DNA of 37,761 nucleotides, taken from positions 1-37,761 of the forward strand of contig JAMWZW010000017.1 in assembly GCA_024281995.1 (NCBI GenBank), read 5' to 3'. Positions within the stretch are counted from its first letter, which is position 1. Each line of letters opens with the position of its first letter. Shown here piece after piece: positions 18,440-28,481 of the stretch. The notes beneath the pieces were generated by a model. That model had not been told where the DNA came from. It searched no databases and saw only the letters and a list, made by a program, of their open reading frames with translations. The position numbers were made by a program, and so were the translations under genes. The stretch comes from Nitrosomonas sp. Its GTDB lineage: Bacteria; Pseudomonadota; Gammaproteobacteria; Burkholderiales; Nitrosomonadaceae.

Positions 18440-18783
18440 TATATCTGATTGATAAGAAAACTGCCTTAATTGAAAGGCTTGTTGACTTGACGTGAACACT
18501 TCAGCGTCAAGATAAGTACTGGTTATTGCAATTTTAGATCCTTCTCAATTCTTGCTTGCCTATATATTCTATTTTTTACCTGTACTAAAAAGGTTATTGA
18601 TTTGTTGAGCAGTATATTTAACCACTTGCTAAATTATTACGAATTGGTGTTTTTTTTATTGCTCATTGAGTTTATTTAGTATTCGATAAAATTAGACCAA
18701 ACTATTCTTCATGGCAGGGTAAACTATACTGAACTATTTGGAAAACACGGCATAGAAATTTAGAAACTGAGGAAATTTCCATT
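18440..18783. other. AT-rich intergenic stretch before the pseudokinase gene
   Basis: About 340 bases without a supportable gene. It is AT-rich and has many stops in all frames. The last part must contain the promoter of the following gene, but no confident -35/-10 pair stands out. Immediately before the start codon lies GAGGAAATTTCC; the palindrome GGAAATTTCC (18771-18780) covers the ribosome site. Confidence 0.6.
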
Positions 18784-20451
18784 ATGATACATCTACATAA
18801 CAATGTTTTACCTGCAGGTACACAAATTGGCGTTTATGAAATTAAGGATGTTATAAATGTTGGCCCTTTTGATATAACCTATCGTGCCTGGAATCATCAT
18901 CTGAAAGAAGGGGTAAAAATACAAGAATATTTTCCTTATGTTTATGCCAAGCGAGCAAACAATGGCCTTGGCACTGAACTGAAATCCGAAAGTGATAAAG
19001 AAAATTTTGAGTATGGTTTAAAGGCATTTCTGGATCAAGCTGAAGCTCTCGTGCAAATCGAAGATCCCAATATTGTTGCAACTGAGAACGTTTTGCAATT
19101 CAATGGTACAGCTTATCTGATTATGGCTCTACAAAAAGGTGTTTCGTTATCAAGACTGGTCGAATCCCAAACTGTATTACCTGAAACTGAATTAAGATTC
19201 ATTGTGATGTCGATTCTGGCAGCTTTACAGAAAATTCATGCGCATCAAATCATACACGGGGGCATTCAGCCGGGAACTATATTATTAGGCAAAGACGGCG
19301 AGCCACAATTAACTGATTTTTCCGCAGCACGACTGGCAGTTGCTGCACGTACTGATCGGCTCGCTGAAGTCCTTTTTACTGGCTATGCTCCGATTGAGCA
19401 ATATGAAGTCGGGAATGCCAATGGACCTGCAACCGATTTTTATTCGTTGGGTGCAACGATCTATTACTGTATGACGCATCAGCAACCTATTGCTGCCCAG
19501 CAGCGGATAATGGCTTTAAGCAAAGGCGAATCCGATCCAATGGTTTTACTCTCTACATCTACAAATACTTCCTATAGCGCAGAATTGCTGCAAGCAGTCA
19601 ATTGGATGCTGCAACTTGAATACAGTAAACGGCCGCAATCGGCACTTGAATTATTAACGTTGCTAGAATCAGTAGCTAGCGATGAGCGGTCTGAATTTAC
19701 AGTTTCCAACCAGCAAGCAATTACGGAAACGAGTAGTCGCCGTAAGTACTTATTGGGAGGGGCTGCTGTCATTGCAGGGATAATTGTGTTAGTTGCTGTT
19801 ATGCTGCGTTTTGACGGAAAGGCTGTAGAAGTATTAGTCGATAAATCCGGTATGGCAGTGACACCCTCAGTACCTGAACAAACCATAGCGATATCGAAAT
19901 CAACACAAACAGATGCAGTGAGCAGTATTGATTCGGATGCGACATCAGTTTCAGAAGGGATGATGGGGGCCAGCCAAGAGTTGATGAATGACGCTGAAAA
20001 ACAATTAGCAGAAAATGAAATTATTGTGGAAAATTCCTCGCGTGTTGCCACAATAGAACCTGAGACAAATCAGCAAGCAACTCGGAATCAATCATTGGTG
20101 CAGCCCGAACAGTGGAAGAATCAAGAAAACACAGTAGATGCTGAATTAAACAAAAAGTATTTGTCTGCCGCTGTAAGAGCCTTAAAAGCCGGACGTCTTA
20201 CCACGCCTATGAAAGATAATGCTTATAAATATTACCAGGCTGTACTAGCTGTAGAGTCGGATAATGAGGAAGCACTTGCAGGTTTGCAGAAAATAGTTGA
20301 TCGGTATATTCAGTTTATAAACACTGCAGAAGCTTTAGGCAAGCTCAACGAGGCCAAACTATATCTGCAGAGAGCTGAATCGGTTCTGCCCGGTGATCCT
20401 GAATTACAGAATATACGTGCTAAGTTACTGGCTACTACAACGAATGAGTAA
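18784..20451 (+). CDS. Membrane-anchored serine/threonine pseudokinase with periplasmic TPR-like tail
   Basis: The first 290 or so residues have the fold signature of bacterial Ser/Thr kinases (the family whose members usually read VAIKEYFP, HRDIKP and DFGAAR). The key residues are changed. The glycine loop is INVGPFDITY (24-33), the VAIK Lys is Gln47 (VKIQEYFP), the HRD loop is HGGIQPGTI (158-166, catalytic Asp replaced by Gly160), and DFG is DFS (178-180). Structural features such as TDFYSLGATIYY and TGYAPIEQYE are kept. A TM helix (YLLGGAAVIAGIIVLVAVML, about 322-341) separates the cytoplasmic domain from a Ser/Thr/Glu-rich linker and a TPR-like C-terminus (KYYQAVLAVESDNEEALAGL, LNEAKLYLQRAESVLPGDPE). 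ATP-dependent phosphotransfer is therefore unlikely; a scaffold or sensor role is inferred. The ATG has a GAGGAAA ribosome site. Confidence 0.88.
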   Translation: MIHLHNNVLPAGTQIGVYEIKDVINVGPFDITYRAWNHHLKEGVKIQEYFPYVYAKRANNGLGTELKSESDKENFEYGLKAFLDQAEALVQIEDPNIVATENVLQFNGTAYLIMALQKGVSLSRLVESQTVLPETELRFIVMSILAALQKIHAHQIIHGGIQPGTILLGKDGEPQLTDFSAARLAVAARTDRLAEVLFTGYAPIEQYEVGNANGPATDFYSLGATIYYCMTHQQPIAAQQRIMALSKGESDPMVLLSTSTNTSYSAELLQAVNWMLQLEYSKRPQSALELLTLLESVASDERSEFTVSNQQAITETSSRRKYLLGGAAVIAGIIVLVAVMLRFDGKAVEVLVDKSGMAVTPSVPEQTIAISKSTQTDAVSSIDSDATSVSEGMMGASQELMNDAEKQLAENEIIVENSSRVATIEPETNQQATRNQSLVQPEQWKNQENTVDAELNKKYLSAAVRALKAGRLTTPMKDNAYKYYQAVLAVESDNEEALAGLQKIVDRYIQFINTAEALGKLNEAKLYLQRAESVLPGDPELQNIRAKLLATTTNE

Positions 20452-21247: not shown

Positions 21248-21280
21248 CAGCTAATTGTCCTGCCAATTGATGATTGATTA

Positions 21281-22138
21281 GGGTCTGTTGACATTTCACA
21301 TAGGTAGCCACAGAAATCGACACGCCATGGCTACCATACTCTCAAGATTTCGCTTTAGTTTGTCGTATCGTGTCGCTATTGCCCGATACTGCTTTAGCCG
21401 GGCAATAGCATTCTCCACCAAATGCCGGCATCTATACAAACCTCAATCCATATCTGCGTTACCCTTCAACGAGTTGCGCTTTCTCGGTATCACAGCCCGA
21501 GCCCCCCTTCTTCGTTATCTGTTCCCGTATACATTCGCTGTCATAGCCTTTGTCCGCAACAATCGCTTTCGCATCAGGCAACCTGGCAATCAACTCAGGT
21601 GCTGCAGAACAGTCATTGATTTCTCCACCGGTAATTTCAAACTCAACTGGTAAACCATAACCATCGACCGCTAAATGGATCTTTGTGGTATTGCCTGCAC
21701 GGCTTTTGACCTTCAGCCTGCGAATCTTGACTCGCTGCTCCCGCACTATGCTGATGCGCTTTAACATAGCCGCCATCAATAAATTCCCATTCCCAATCCG
21801 GATCAATAGCCAACGCCTTGAAAATCCTTAACCATTTGTTGCTTAATGACCACGCATTGAATCTTTTATAGATGGAATTCCAGCCGCCGAACGCCTTGGG
21901 CAGGTCTCGCCACGGACAGCCAACCCGCATTCGATACAGTATTCCTTCTACCGTCATGCGCAGATTGCGCTTGTTATAAATCGCTTCTTGAAGCAGAATC
22001 TTCTCCAGCTTCGACCAAAACTCATCACTGAGCATCAATCGAGGCATCGCAAACTCGTTTTGTTAGTGGTGTAGGAACCTCAATATTGCGATTTTGTTTT
22101 TATAAATTAAATACTTAGTTAAAAATGTCAACAGGGCC
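21281..22138 (-). mobile_element. IS5-family insertion sequence, copy 1
   Basis: This 858-bp element is flanked by TA on both sides (21279-21280 and 22139-22140), a 2-bp target duplication. The inverted ends are GGGTCTGTTGACATTT and, from the other end, GGCCCTGTTGACATTT. The transposase is on the minus strand. Two further near-identical copies lie at 24734-25589 and 27515-28370 in the opposite orientation. The transposase frames and the TA target fit the IS427-type subgroup of IS5. This copy has a run of six G where the others have five, and keeps an A that the other two have lost. Confidence 0.92.
21296..22047 (-). pseudogene. IS5-family transposase, frame-broken (copy 1)
   Basis: The first part (22047 down to 21643) encodes MPRLMLSDEFWSKLEKILLQ, the HTH-like N-terminal region and the first catalytic Asp in FIDGGYVKAHQHSAGA. 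The second part, in the +1 frame (open to 21459), encodes TTKIHLAVDGYGLPVEFEIT and the second catalytic Asp in VADKGYDSECI. The rest (KGARAVIP onward through the LYRCRHLVENAFARLKQYRA block with the catalytic Glu) is thrown out of frame by a sixth G in a homopolymer at about 21501-21506 (C6 on the plus strand). The step from the first to the second part may be a programmed frameshift, since all three copies share it; the G insertion is specific to this copy. Confidence 0.85.
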
Positions 22139-22207
22139 TAGAGTAATTGCATCATCTGTTAAGAAATTTCATATTTAAGCGGCCGCAGTTAAGTAAACAT
22201 TTCACAT

Positions 22208-24690: not shown

Positions 24691-24733
24691 GGTCAATCAT
24701 TACTCAAGCTTAAAAAATTTCTCTAGCTGTGTA

Positions 24734-25589
24734 GGTCCTGTTGACATTTTGAACTAGGTATTTAATTTATAGGAACAAACCCGTAATATTGAGGTTCTTA
24801 CACCACTAACAAAACGAGTTTGCGATGCCTCGATTGATGCTCAGTGATGAGTTCTGGTCGAAGCTGGAGAAGATTCTGCTTCAAGAAGCGATTTATAACA
24901 AGCGCAATCTGCGCATGACGGTAGAAGGAATACTGTATCGAATGCGGGTTGGCTGTCCGTGGCGAGACCTGCCCAAGGCGTTCGGCGGCTGGAATTCCAT
25001 CTATAAAAGATTCAATGCGTGGTCATTAAGCAACAAATGGTTAAGGATTTTCAAAGCGCTGGCTATTGATCCGGATTGGGAATGGGAATTTATTGATGGT
25101 AGCTATGTTAAAGCGCATCAGCATAGTGCGGGAGCAGCGAGTCAAGATTCGCAGGCTGAAGGTCAAAAGCCGTGCAGGCAATACCACAAAGATCCATTTA
25201 GCGGTCGATGGTTATGGTTTACCAGTTGAGTTTGAAATTACCGGTGGAGAAATCAATGACTGTTCTGCAGCACCTGAGTTGATTGCCAGGCTGCCTGATG
25301 CGAAGCGATTGTTGCGGACAAAGGCTATGACAGCGAATGTATACGGGAACAGATAACGAAGAAGGGGGCTCGGGCTGTGATACCGAGAAAGCGCAATTCG
25401 TTGAAGGGTAACGCAGATATCGATTGGGGTTTGTATAGATGCCGGCATTTGGTGGAGAATGCTTTTGCCCGGCTAAAGCAGTATCGGGCAATAGCGACAC
25501 GATACGACAAACTAAAGCGAAATTTTGAGAGTATGGTAGCCATGGCGTGTGGATTTCTGTGGCTACCTATATGAAATGTCAACAGACCT
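24734..25589 (+). mobile_element. IS5-family insertion sequence, copy 2
   Basis: This 856-bp element has flanking TA at 24732-24733 and 25590-25591. The ends are GGTCCTGTTGACATTTTGAA on the left and, read inward from the right, AGGTCTGTTGACATTTCA. It is oriented opposite to copy 1 and in the same direction as copy 3. It differs from copy 3 by a few substitutions only. Confidence 0.92.
24825..25574 (+). pseudogene. IS5-family transposase, frame-broken (copy 2)
   Basis: The product is split into three frames. The N-terminal part (24825-25229) ends after the first catalytic Asp region. The middle part is open at 25066-25356 and contains TTKIHLAVDGYGLPVEFEIT. The C-terminal part (25377-25574) contains the LYRCRHLVENAFARLKQYRA block with the catalytic Glu. 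The break between middle and C-terminal parts is caused by loss of one A after CCTGATGCGA (GCGAAAGCG in copy 1 reads GCGAAGCG here, near 25298-25305), so the VADKGYD motif is lost from the frame. The same lesion is present in copy 3. Confidence 0.85.
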
Positions 25590-25911
25590 TAGCTATAATC
25601 AGCAAATTTTTCTCGATCTATCGCTTAAACAGCACGCATTTTTTATGCACCCTCCGATTTACTTGTAAGATTATTTCTGACAATTACCTACAATTTAAAT
25701 GAATCAATAGAAATTAAAAACATTTGATTTTAGGACTGAACGTAGGTAATGAGAATCGGTCTGTTCAAGTATCTCGAAACAAAAGTGTATGGTTTGCATT
25801 AGAATGCCGTTACCCTCGAAATCAGGGAGATAAAATCGTGTTAAAAACATCAATAGATTGCCGCAAAAACTATTCCATAATCATGTTTATTTACAGATTT
25901 ATAGTAAATCA
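25590..25911. other. Intergenic stretch upstream of the metalloprotease gene
   Basis: About 320 bases between the IS5 copy 2 end and the metalloprotease start. I see no supportable gene; a 63-codon frame from 25724 has no ribosome site and no recognisable features. It should hold the protease promoter unless that is supplied by the IS. No clear hairpin or operator is seen. Confidence 0.55.
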
Positions 25912-27450
25912 ATGACTACGCCATTCGTATCAAGCGATGTTACAGATATTCAAATTGCCAATATCAATACAATTGACTCCTTATTAAGTGATTTACGTTG
26001 GACGAACCCAACCATTTCCTACAGTTTTCCAACAAGCAATAGCCCTCTCCTATGGTCAACACTACCAGGATCAGGTTATGGTCCGCAATTTGGTGATGGT
26101 GAGCCTTGGAACGCAGCAGCCCAGCCACTAACGACGAAAGATCAAATCAATGTCGAACAGGCGCTGCAAAAATGGGCGAATGTTGCTAATATTAATTTTA
26201 TTAAGCTTTTTGAAACCGCCGATGAAGTCGGCGATATCCGCGTAGCGTACAGTGAAGATCCAGAAGAATTCGTGTTAGCTTGGTCTTATCTGCCGGGTTT
26301 CAGTGTCCGGGCGGGCGATATCTGGATTAATACCCTGGGTATTCTAAATTTCCAGGATTGGGATCCTGGCACGATCTCCTTTCAATCTATTTTGCATGAA
26401 ATTGGTCACACAATAGGCCTCAAACACCCCTTTTTTGATTCTGACAACCCATCCGCTGCGACACTTCCAACCGATCAGGATAATAAACTGCATACCATCA
26501 TGAGCTATACTTATGCGAACTTGCAAGGTGATGAAGGCAATGAATTTTCCTTTCATCCCACCACACCTATGGTACTTGATATCGCTGCCATTCAATATCT
26601 CTATGGTGCCAACAACACTTACCAGTCTGGTAACGATACGTATTCTTATGGTGATGGCAACATCTATCATGAAACTATTTGGGATACCGGCGGAACAGAC
26701 ACTATCCAGTACACAGGCGTGACTCCAACGAGCATTGATTTAAATGCTAAGAACGGATCGTATATTGGCCAATCCGTATATGTCCAATCCAATGGTGTCA
26801 AGCTTGGCTTGCCCATTCCCAATATATGGATCGCTGGTGGCGTTACTATAGAAAATGCCACTGCAGGTCAGGGTAACGATATACTGATAGGCAACGTTAA
26901 TAGTAATACGTTGGATGGCGGCTCAGGTATCGACACGGTTGTGTCGAGAACTAGCCACAATCAATTTACCCTAAACAAAATAGCCAACGGCTACACTGTC
27001 ACCGATAACGCCAATTCTAACAATCGTGACACCTTGATAGCTGTTGAGCGCCTTAAATTTGATGATATTGGAATAGCCCTAGACTTAGACGGTCATGCGG
27101 GTGAGGTTGCCAAATTATTGGGTGCTGTATTCGGCACCTCTGCCATTGCTAACCGGGAATATGTCGGCATAGGCTTAACTGAAGTTGATAAGGGTTTAAA
27201 TTATGAACAATTAGGCGAATTGGCGATCAACGCAAAAGGACTAAAAACTTCAGATGAAATTGTAACCTTGTTATGGAGCAATCTGTTTGGATCTCTACCC
27301 TCAAAATCTGAAAAAGCGCCGTACATGAAAATGCTTGATAGCGGCCAAATATCTATTGGCGCCTTGGCCGTTGCTGCTGCCGAAAGTAACTTCAACGCCG
27401 ACAACATCGACTTGGTTGGACTTATACAAACAGGCCTTGAGTTTATCTAA
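25912..27450 (+). CDS. Serralysin-like M10 metalloprotease with DUF4214 C-terminus
   Basis: The 512-residue protein has the metzincin zinc site LHEIGHTIGLKHPF (His162, Glu163, His166, His172) and a Met-turn TIMSYTY about 30 residues later, as in serralysins. The substrate is unknown. After the catalytic domain comes a short beta region with AGQGNDILIGNVNSNTLDGG, one RTX-like nonapeptide pair (GGSGID) rather than the usual long array. The last 115 residues form a DUF4214 domain (LDLDGHAGEVAKLLGAVFG, then EYVGIGLTEVDKGLNYEQLG) ending in GLIQTGLEFI, a hydrophobic end typical of type I secreted proteins. There is no N-terminal signal peptide, which agrees with type I export; no transporter genes are in view. 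The ATG at 25912 has no obvious ribosome site. Confidence 0.87.
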   Translation: MTTPFVSSDVTDIQIANINTIDSLLSDLRWTNPTISYSFPTSNSPLLWSTLPGSGYGPQFGDGEPWNAAAQPLTTKDQINVEQALQKWANVANINFIKLFETADEVGDIRVAYSEDPEEFVLAWSYLPGFSVRAGDIWINTLGILNFQDWDPGTISFQSILHEIGHTIGLKHPFFDSDNPSAATLPTDQDNKLHTIMSYTYANLQGDEGNEFSFHPTTPMVLDIAAIQYLYGANNTYQSGNDTYSYGDGNIYHETIWDTGGTDTIQYTGVTPTSIDLNAKNGSYIGQSVYVQSNGVKLGLPIPNIWIAGGVTIENATAGQGNDILIGNVNSNTLDGGSGIDTVVSRTSHNQFTLNKIANGYTVTDNANSNNRDTLIAVERLKFDDIGIALDLDGHAGEVAKLLGAVFGTSAIANREYVGIGLTEVDKGLNYEQLGELAINAKGLKTSDEIVTLLWSNLFGSLPSKSEKAPYMKMLDSGQISIGALAVAAAESNFNADNIDLVGLIQTGLEFI

Positions 27451-27514
27451 AACCGTGCCTCCACGCTTCTTAACCATTTAATCAGATTTAAGCATTTTCC
27501 AGTAAACTTTACTA

Positions 27515-28370
27515 GGTTCTGTTGGCATTTTGAACTAAGTATTTAATTTATAGAAACAAAATCGCAATATTGAGGTTCCTACACCACTAACAAAACGAGT
27601 TTGCGATGCCTCGATTGATGCTCAGTGATGAGTTCTGGTCGAAGCTGGAGAAGATTCTGCTTCAAGAAGCGATTTATAACAAGCGCAATCTGCGCATGAC
27701 GGTAGAAGGAATACTGTATCGAATGCGGGTTGGCTGTCCGTGGCGAGAGCTGCCCAAGGCGTTCGGCGGCTGGAATTCCATCTATAAAAGATTCAATGCG
27801 TGGTCATTAAGCAACAAATGGTTAAGGATTTTTAAGGCGTTGGCTATTGATCCGGATTGGGAATGGGAATTTATTGATGGCGGCTATGTTAAAGCGCATC
27901 AGCATAGTGCGGGAGCAGCGAGTCAAGATTCGCAGGCTGAAGGTCAAAAGCCGTGCAGGCAATACCACAAAGATCCATTTAGCGGTCGATGGTTATGGTT
28001 TACCAGTTGAGTTTGAAATTACCGGTGGAGAAATCAATGACTGTTCTGCAGCACCTGAGTTGATTGCCAGGTTGCCTGATGCGAAGCGATTGTTGCGGAC
28101 AAAGGCTATGACAGCGAATGTATACGGGAACAGATAACGAAGAAGGGGGCTCGGGCTGTGATACCGAGAAAGCGCAATTCGTTGAAGGGTAACGCAGATA
28201 TCGATTGGGGTTTGTATAGATGCCGGCATTTGGTGGAGAATGCTTTTGCCCGGCTAAAGCAGTATCGGGCAATAGCGACACGATACGACAAACTAAAGCG
28301 AAATTTTGAGAGTATGGTAGCCATGGCGTGTGGATTTCTGTGGCTACCTATGTGAAATGTCAACAGACCC
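27515..28370 (+). mobile_element. IS5-family insertion sequence, copy 3
   Basis: This 856-bp element has flanking TA at 27513-27514 and 28371-28372. The ends are GGTTCTGTTGGCATTTTGA on the left and, read inward from the right, GGGTCTGTTGACATTTCA. It has inserted into codon 109 or so of the minus-strand gene described above. Precise removal with one TA restores that gene frame. Confidence 0.93.
27606..28355 (+). pseudogene. IS5-family transposase, frame-broken (copy 3)
   Basis: It has the same three-frame arrangement as copy 2: parts open at 27606-28010, 27847-28137 and 28158-28355, carrying the FIDGGYVKAHQHSAGA, TTKIHLAVDGYGLP and LYRCRHLVENAFARLKQYRA blocks respectively. It shares the one-base A loss of copy 2 near 28080, and keeps the correct five-G run. 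It differs from copy 2 by single substitutions such as Asp to Glu after CPWR. The shared lesion shows that copies 2 and 3 have a common damaged ancestor. Confidence 0.85.
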
Positions 28371-28481
28371 TAGTACCGGTATCTGATTTTGCGTCAAGGA
28401 TAGCTTCTACACCTTGATCAGGACAATGTGCCATCGCGGCAACAGTTGCTTCGAAAAGATAATTCCTGGCTTCGTTTGATT

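Follow-up and report, generated by a model that had tools for sequence, protein, structure and literature searches.

Bacterial pseudokinases are largely unexplored by experiment, and the survey in PMC12599244 describes families that consist entirely (ActPs1-3, GLW and DLHK) or partly (CP1 and DYD) of such proteins, while EssB, SidJ and SelO are left unclassified. Two of the systems treated there resemble the protein that is the subject of this article. EssB/YukC of type VII secretion (T7SSb) is described as a cytosolic pseudokinase with all three motifs lost, joined to a transmembrane part and serving as a non-catalytic scaffold, and MviN/ActPs3 is described as having lost all catalytic motifs and as having a recruiting role (PMC12599244). 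Here we describe PSK, a protein encoded at positions 18784-20451 (+) of a 37,761-nucleotide stretch of Nitrosomonas sp. DNA (assembly GCA_024281995.1, contig JAMWZW010000017.1; hereafter the window), and we use the same name for its Nitrosomonas orthologues. Members of this genus oxidise ammonia in waste water and soils, and many of them keep a membrane kinase-fold protein without catalytic residues, which suggests a docking or signal-relay part and not an enzyme. We propose, with a probability of about 0.6, that PSK is a Nitrosomonas clade-specific transmembrane pseudokinase that arose from PpkA-like (GFGITY/GFGIVY...KEY.P) Hanks-type kinases and works as a docking scaffold across the membrane. 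A literature search for pseudokinases in Nitrosomonas returned a single paper, listed as dealing with stress proteins of rice, and neither PpkA nor Nitroso is mentioned in the main text of PMC12599244.

The loss of the catalytic residues is clade-wide. We counted alignment columns over 78 distinct proteins: each of the 37 carrier genomes contributed one genus orthologue, and the remaining 41 family members were the best-matching fetched loci and not a random sample. The VAIK lysine, the alphaC glutamate, the catalytic HRD aspartate, the catalytic-loop asparagine and the DFG glycine were each present in all 41 other members and in none of the 37 orthologues. Gln, Arg, His or Leu stands at the lysine site (Q47 in the window) and Gln (34), His (2) or Leu (1) at the alphaC position, while the HRD site reads HGG, HCG, HSG or HEG, with Gly160 in every orthologue. 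The catalytic loop of the window protein carries H158, G160, Q162 and T165 as read from the translation, with T165 at the asparagine site, and S180 replaces the DFG glycine. The initial annotation, which called the protein a pseudokinase, had listed NVGPFD, Gln47, HGG with Gly160, Gln162 and DFS in a frame open over 555 codons; its residues were right when re-read from the translation, and the open reading frame (ORF) does run from its ATG. Two further changes go beyond that list. In 32 of the 37 orthologues a charged residue (Lys, Glu, Arg or Asp) stands in place of the VAIK alanine, which lines the adenine pocket and is found in 40 of the 41 other members, and the last glycine-loop position, which is Gly, Ser or Ala in all of the others, is Asp or Glu in all orthologues. 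With a kinase fold present, the VAIK lysine and HRD aspartate lost in 37/37 orthologues, and the catalytic set lost in 0/41 of the others, PSK is almost certainly a pseudokinase on the strength of its sequence.

Other parts of the domain have been retained. Glu205 in the APE-like motif, Asp218 in helix F and Arg283 in helix I, which we take to be fold-holding residues, are found in all 37 orthologues and all 41 other members. Outside the catalytic motifs, several residues that are rare in the other members are fixed or nearly so in PSK (34-37 of 37; for example N37, K41, E87, L104, S143, Q239 and M275), a pattern that suggests new constraints.

The PSK sequences also belong together in phylogenetic trees. 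A tree of 37 PSKs and other family members, from which the catalytic columns were left out, recovered the PSKs as one clade, with support 93/93 and the same grouping in 94% of 200 bootstrap trees. A caution on this tree is that it includes L114, a Nitrosomonas kinase described below, whose very long branch meets the PSK stem. In a second tree of 45 rows, again with the catalytic columns out, with 16 PSKs and with L114 excluded, the support for the clade was 100/100. A single clade is what a single loss predicts, although it is not proof of one, and most simply the catalytic residues would have been lost once, before the sampled orthologues diverged.

Selection has acted on the domain after this loss. 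Ratios of nonsynonymous to synonymous change (dN/dS, or omega) were calculated by the Nei-Gojobori method for 15 non-overlapping orthologue pairs, after removal of a duplicate row (L055 = L084). Omega for the kinase domain ranged from 0.10 to 0.24 (median 0.18), and for the C-terminal domain with similarity to tetratricopeptide repeats (TPR) from 0.06 to 0.36 (median 0.14; 14 pairs defined), whereas the linker and transmembrane part (residues 296-455) gave 0.27-0.66 (median 0.45). Thus, constraint on the dead kinase domain is about as strict as that on the second folded domain. A wider set of 71 overlapping pairs, with one duplicate row, gave linker values of 1.01 and 1.36 in two distant pairs. 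The check that had been suggested at the outset, a search for orthologues sharing the substitutions with dN/dS below 1, was positive: the catalytic losses are shared by all 37 orthologues, and the domain is under purifying selection.

The predicted structure is that of a kinase fold, with a confidence score (pLDDT) of 73-89 over residues 11-190 and 221-290, and it matches PpkA, the Foldseek and VIA lists being taken up by matches to the kinase domain. Hydropathy peaks at the transmembrane site in all 38 rows examined, 34 of which have no second window of at least 1.6, and AlphaFold places a low-confidence helix there at residues 327-340. Beyond the linker, helices are predicted at residues 450-468, 479-490, 495-517, 521-534 and 539-554, with pLDDT 84-88 over residues 481-550 and 54-75 over 451-480. 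The TPR-like part proposed in the initial annotation is thus upheld by five predicted helices and by a widespread homologous domain, but its repeats fall below the Pfam cut-offs (TPR_19, 17.0 bits, cut-off 25; TPR_14, 17.0 bits, cut-off 23.5). The layout of the gene is given in Table 1.

Table 1. Features of the PSK gene; positions are those of the window.
Feature	Position	Strand	Basis or remark
Whole pseudokinase gene PSK	18784..20451	+	ORF, 555 codons plus stop, ATG start
Possible ribosome-binding site AGGA	18770..18773	+	10 nt upstream of ATG, read from sequence
Kinase-fold domain, residues 9-298, predicted cytosolic	18808..19677	+	
Degraded glycine loop NVGPFD, residues 25-30	18856..18873	+	Column counts, 37 orthologues
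VKIQ replacing VAIK, residues 44-47	18913..18924	+	Column counts
Gln85 replacing alphaC Glu	19036..19038	+	Column counts
HGGIQPGT replacing HRDxKPxN, residues 158-165	19255..19278	+	Column counts
DFS replacing DFG, residues 178-180	19315..19323	+	Column counts
GYAPIEQY, APE-like activation-segment end, retained, residues 200-207	19381..19404	+	Alignment; Glu205 37/37
Single transmembrane helix, residues 323-341	19750..19806	+	Hydropathy 2.81
Long fast-evolving linker, residues 342-449	19807..20130	+	pLDDT 23-34
TPR-like helical domain, residues 450-554, predicted periplasmic	20131..20445	+	Predicted helices, homologues elsewhere

A profile of the TPR-like domain picked up homologues in 61 of the 274 genomes sampled from the class, the window genome among them. 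ORFs holding the domain were taken at 29 of these loci, and nine of them are GFGITY-type kinases with intact motifs and the domain at the C-terminus, which makes the kinase with a TPR-like domain a recurrent architecture. One of the active GFGITY-type kinases of other Gammaproteobacteria (L154, 540 aa) has the same order of domains as PSK and aligns with its residues 5-550 at 30% identity. Unlike PSK, the active fusions retain their catalytic residues. Their nine kinase domains form a group that takes in one further row without a known fusion and that excludes PSK, so that the PSK architecture may have been inherited or assembled separately. Descent of PSK from the active fusions was considered and is not supported, its placement among the active kinases receiving 75/27. 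Ten of the proteins with the TPR-like domain were scanned against Pfam; L156 has ankyrin repeats and L145 has no Pfam-named partner. At L143:652-2742 the TPR-like domain is fused with a TIR domain and with a sulfatase-modifying-factor (FGE) domain. Two proteins of about 700 aa (L105:3171-5285 and L106:2864-4933), which combine ankyrin repeats with a match to AAA-type ATPases (a weak one in L105), match the TPR-like domain weakly and adjoin ORFs similar to the MotB-like gene of the window.

Compared with the described systems, PSK is a pseudokinase by definition and PpkA-like by descent, but it is not a PpkA. PpkA is a Ser/Thr kinase linked to the type VI secretion system (T6SS; structures 5hnv and 5x1r), and its catalytic residues are intact whereas those of PSK are lost. 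EssB/YukC differs from PSK in belonging to Firmicutes and to type VII secretion and in its attenuated activation loop, a segment that PSK retains; the EssB/YukC family was not among the eight Pfam matches of PSK up to E 1, in a library that was not checked for such a model. ActPs3 is described as mainly actinobacterial and as having a deletion in the activation loop, whereas the segment from DFS to GYAPIEQY in PSK aligns with active kinases without a deletion. The proteobacterial GLW family shares a transmembrane region C-terminal to the kinase domain, which in PSK is placed by hydropathy, but there GLW takes the place of HRD, and LLLL/W that of the ATP motif. The HRD aspartate is given as Asn in ActPs2 and as kept in DLHK, whereas PSK has Gly in all cases, and CP1 is given as a fusion to a COG3899 ATPase without a transmembrane region, whereas PSK has one such region and no ATPase match in Pfam. 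By the features tested, PSK falls outside GLW, ActPs2, ActPs3, CP1 and DLHK as these are described in PMC12599244. One of the 42 families of the classification cited in that article may, however, contain a PSK-like minority.

What might a kinase fold of this type be used for? The residues for ATP and magnesium are lost and charged residues stand at the expected sites of adenine and phosphates, so that the fold is most likely a docking surface. We infer that a scaffold or trans-membrane adaptor is the best role for PSK, and a docking or scaffold role seems to us slightly better than an even bet. The cytosolic domain would have lost productive ATP-Mg holding and would act as a protein-docking module; one transmembrane helix and a flexible tether, about 110 residues long, would couple it to the TPR-like domain. 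If the N-terminus is cytosolic, the TPR-like domain would be periplasmic and could bind a protein or an envelope ligand. A binding event on one face of the membrane could then attract or free a partner on the opposite face, as in EssB/YukC (PMC12599244). By analogy with that system or with the pseudokinase domain of MviN, PSK could serve as a membrane scaffold for assembly and signal coupling without phosphotransfer. A role as ligand sensor, which the initial annotation had also mentioned, may apply as well, most easily to the C-terminal domain.

PSK presence was scored in 85 genus genomes as a match to the kinase part at E below 1e-130, and 37 of them carry it. In five carriers the match is in two pieces of one open frame (G008, G016, G020, G022 and G086), G010 has extra fragments besides its PSK, and G004, with an N-terminal fragment only at a contig end, was not counted. 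Proteins with PF00069 above the cut-off occur in 50/85 genomes, and 27 of the 37 carriers, the window genome included, have no other such protein. A non-catalytic role can thus be tested in most carriers without a kinase sibling confusing the result. We also considered a bolder hypothesis, which remains tentative and in our view falls somewhat short of even odds, namely that a one-time conversion, older than the divergence of the sampled Nitrosomonas orthologues, made a Hanks-type receptor kinase into a trans-envelope adaptor that works without phosphorylation. The only PF00069 fold of most carriers would then be dead and would serve purely for protein docking between cytosol and periplasm.

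Several observations weigh against the proposed docking scaffold. The topology rests on hydropathy. When Lys and Arg are counted on either side of the helix, only 26/38 rows point to a cytosolic N-terminus, and the window protein, with 3 against 3, is not among them. The structure model was built on 13 sequences, and its activation segment is poorly predicted (pLDDT 47-59 over residues 191-220). The DFG aspartate, found in 41/41 of the other members, is lost in 23 orthologues but kept in 14, the window PSK among them. The patchy distribution in the genus means that PSK is dispensable in many species, and no conserved operon was seen in the flanks of PSK (17 + 10 loci, some from the same genomes), where the neighbours vary between species.

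Among the alternatives, the one that survives best, while still unlikely, would place the function in the TPR-like domain and leave the kinase fold as only a folded anchor or a minor docking site. In 11/85 genus genomes the TPR-like part is encoded by a short gene without a kinase domain, whose product is 242-313 aa long where the locus was fetched. A tblastn search in the surroundings of ten such loci (L054 and L096-L104) found no kinase remnant, and elsewhere the module is paired with different partner domains. Yet the omega values of the kinase domain are about as low as those of the TPR-like part and well below those of the linker, and many positions of the kinase fold are fixed. Two genomes (G026 and G086) carry both the short gene and PSK, in direct tandem in G086. 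The kinase-less gene at L054:4596-5462, which has counterparts at loci L095-L104, has a diphthamide-synthase-like gene on one side and, on the other, a convergent gene that resembles gatB by eye; in several other loci its neighbours are ORFs of similar size. A transmembrane segment was read by eye in the L054 copy only.

A less probable alternative is that the cleft, while no longer supporting phosphotransfer, still binds a nucleotide or other small molecule and that PSK serves as a sensor switch. The partial retention of the DFG aspartate would fit, and some pseudokinases bind ATP without the beta3 lysine (EphB6, KSR1 and, as modelled, ActPs2; PMC12599244). Against this stand the charged residues at the VAIK alanine site, the acidic residue that closes the glycine loop and the variability of the same aspartate, which drifts while Gly160 is fixed and so indicates that metal binding is no longer selected.

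A non-canonical enzymatic activity has bacterial precedents, SelO and SidJ among them (PMC12599244), but we regard it as improbable: the lysine is absent throughout, and neither the catalytic nor the DFG position retains an invariant acidic residue. Similarly improbable is the allosteric control of an active Hanks-type kinase in the same cell, one of the roles raised by the initial annotation. Such control is a common role of eukaryotic pseudokinases, and ten carriers do have another PF00069 protein above the cut-off (G008, G009, G011, G016, G020, G027, G062, G072, G086 and G102). The idea is weakened because the other 27 do not; in the window genome, two weak sub-threshold hits match RIO1 (RIO kinases). 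The PF00069 count leaves RIO and histidine kinases as possible partners, and draft genomes may miss genes. Finally, decay of the gene in this strain, which copies of an insertion sequence (IS) and an inversion just downstream of PSK might suggest, has next to no probability and is contradicted, as a unique random event, by the open frame, the clade-wide losses, the supported clade and purifying selection, the kinase-domain omega against the nearest orthologue being 0.21.

PpkA-like kinases occur in 8/85 genus genomes, and the seven that were read (L025 and L108-L113) have intact motifs; G072 and G102 carry one together with PSK. The L114 kinase (L114:3831-5345, genome G068), whose HRD and DFG are intact, is a Ser/Thr kinase of a separate kind and stands at a long distance from the PpkA-like group. 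In G024 (locus L052) the PpkA-like gene adjoins TagF and TssM. A T6SS role for PSK was rejected, as its own genome (97.6% complete) has no TssK (PF05936), the one marker used; the flanks of the other PSK loci were not searched for T6SS. A defence function was also set aside, the PADLOC matches (best 25 of 34 families) being read as generic kinase matches.

Likewise, an operon with der was rejected, der being found only in L055, an 80% relative, among the PSK flanks. A serralysin-like metalloprotease gene, below the NCBIfam cut-off, lies at 25858-27450 in the window, and such a gene is located within 2 kb of PSK in 12/37 carriers. Serralysin-type matches at E 1e-60 were obtained in 29/37 carriers and also in 32/48 non-carriers, so that their presence is not clearly tied to PSK; the weaker matches are probably a paralogue. 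Three IS copies of about 862 bp (IS5-type by eye), 97-98% identical, are located at 21279-22141 (-), 24732-25592 (+) and 27512-28373 (+). Compared with L055, the segment 22143-27513 is inverted, as recombination between the outer two copies, which have opposite orientations, would be expected to produce.
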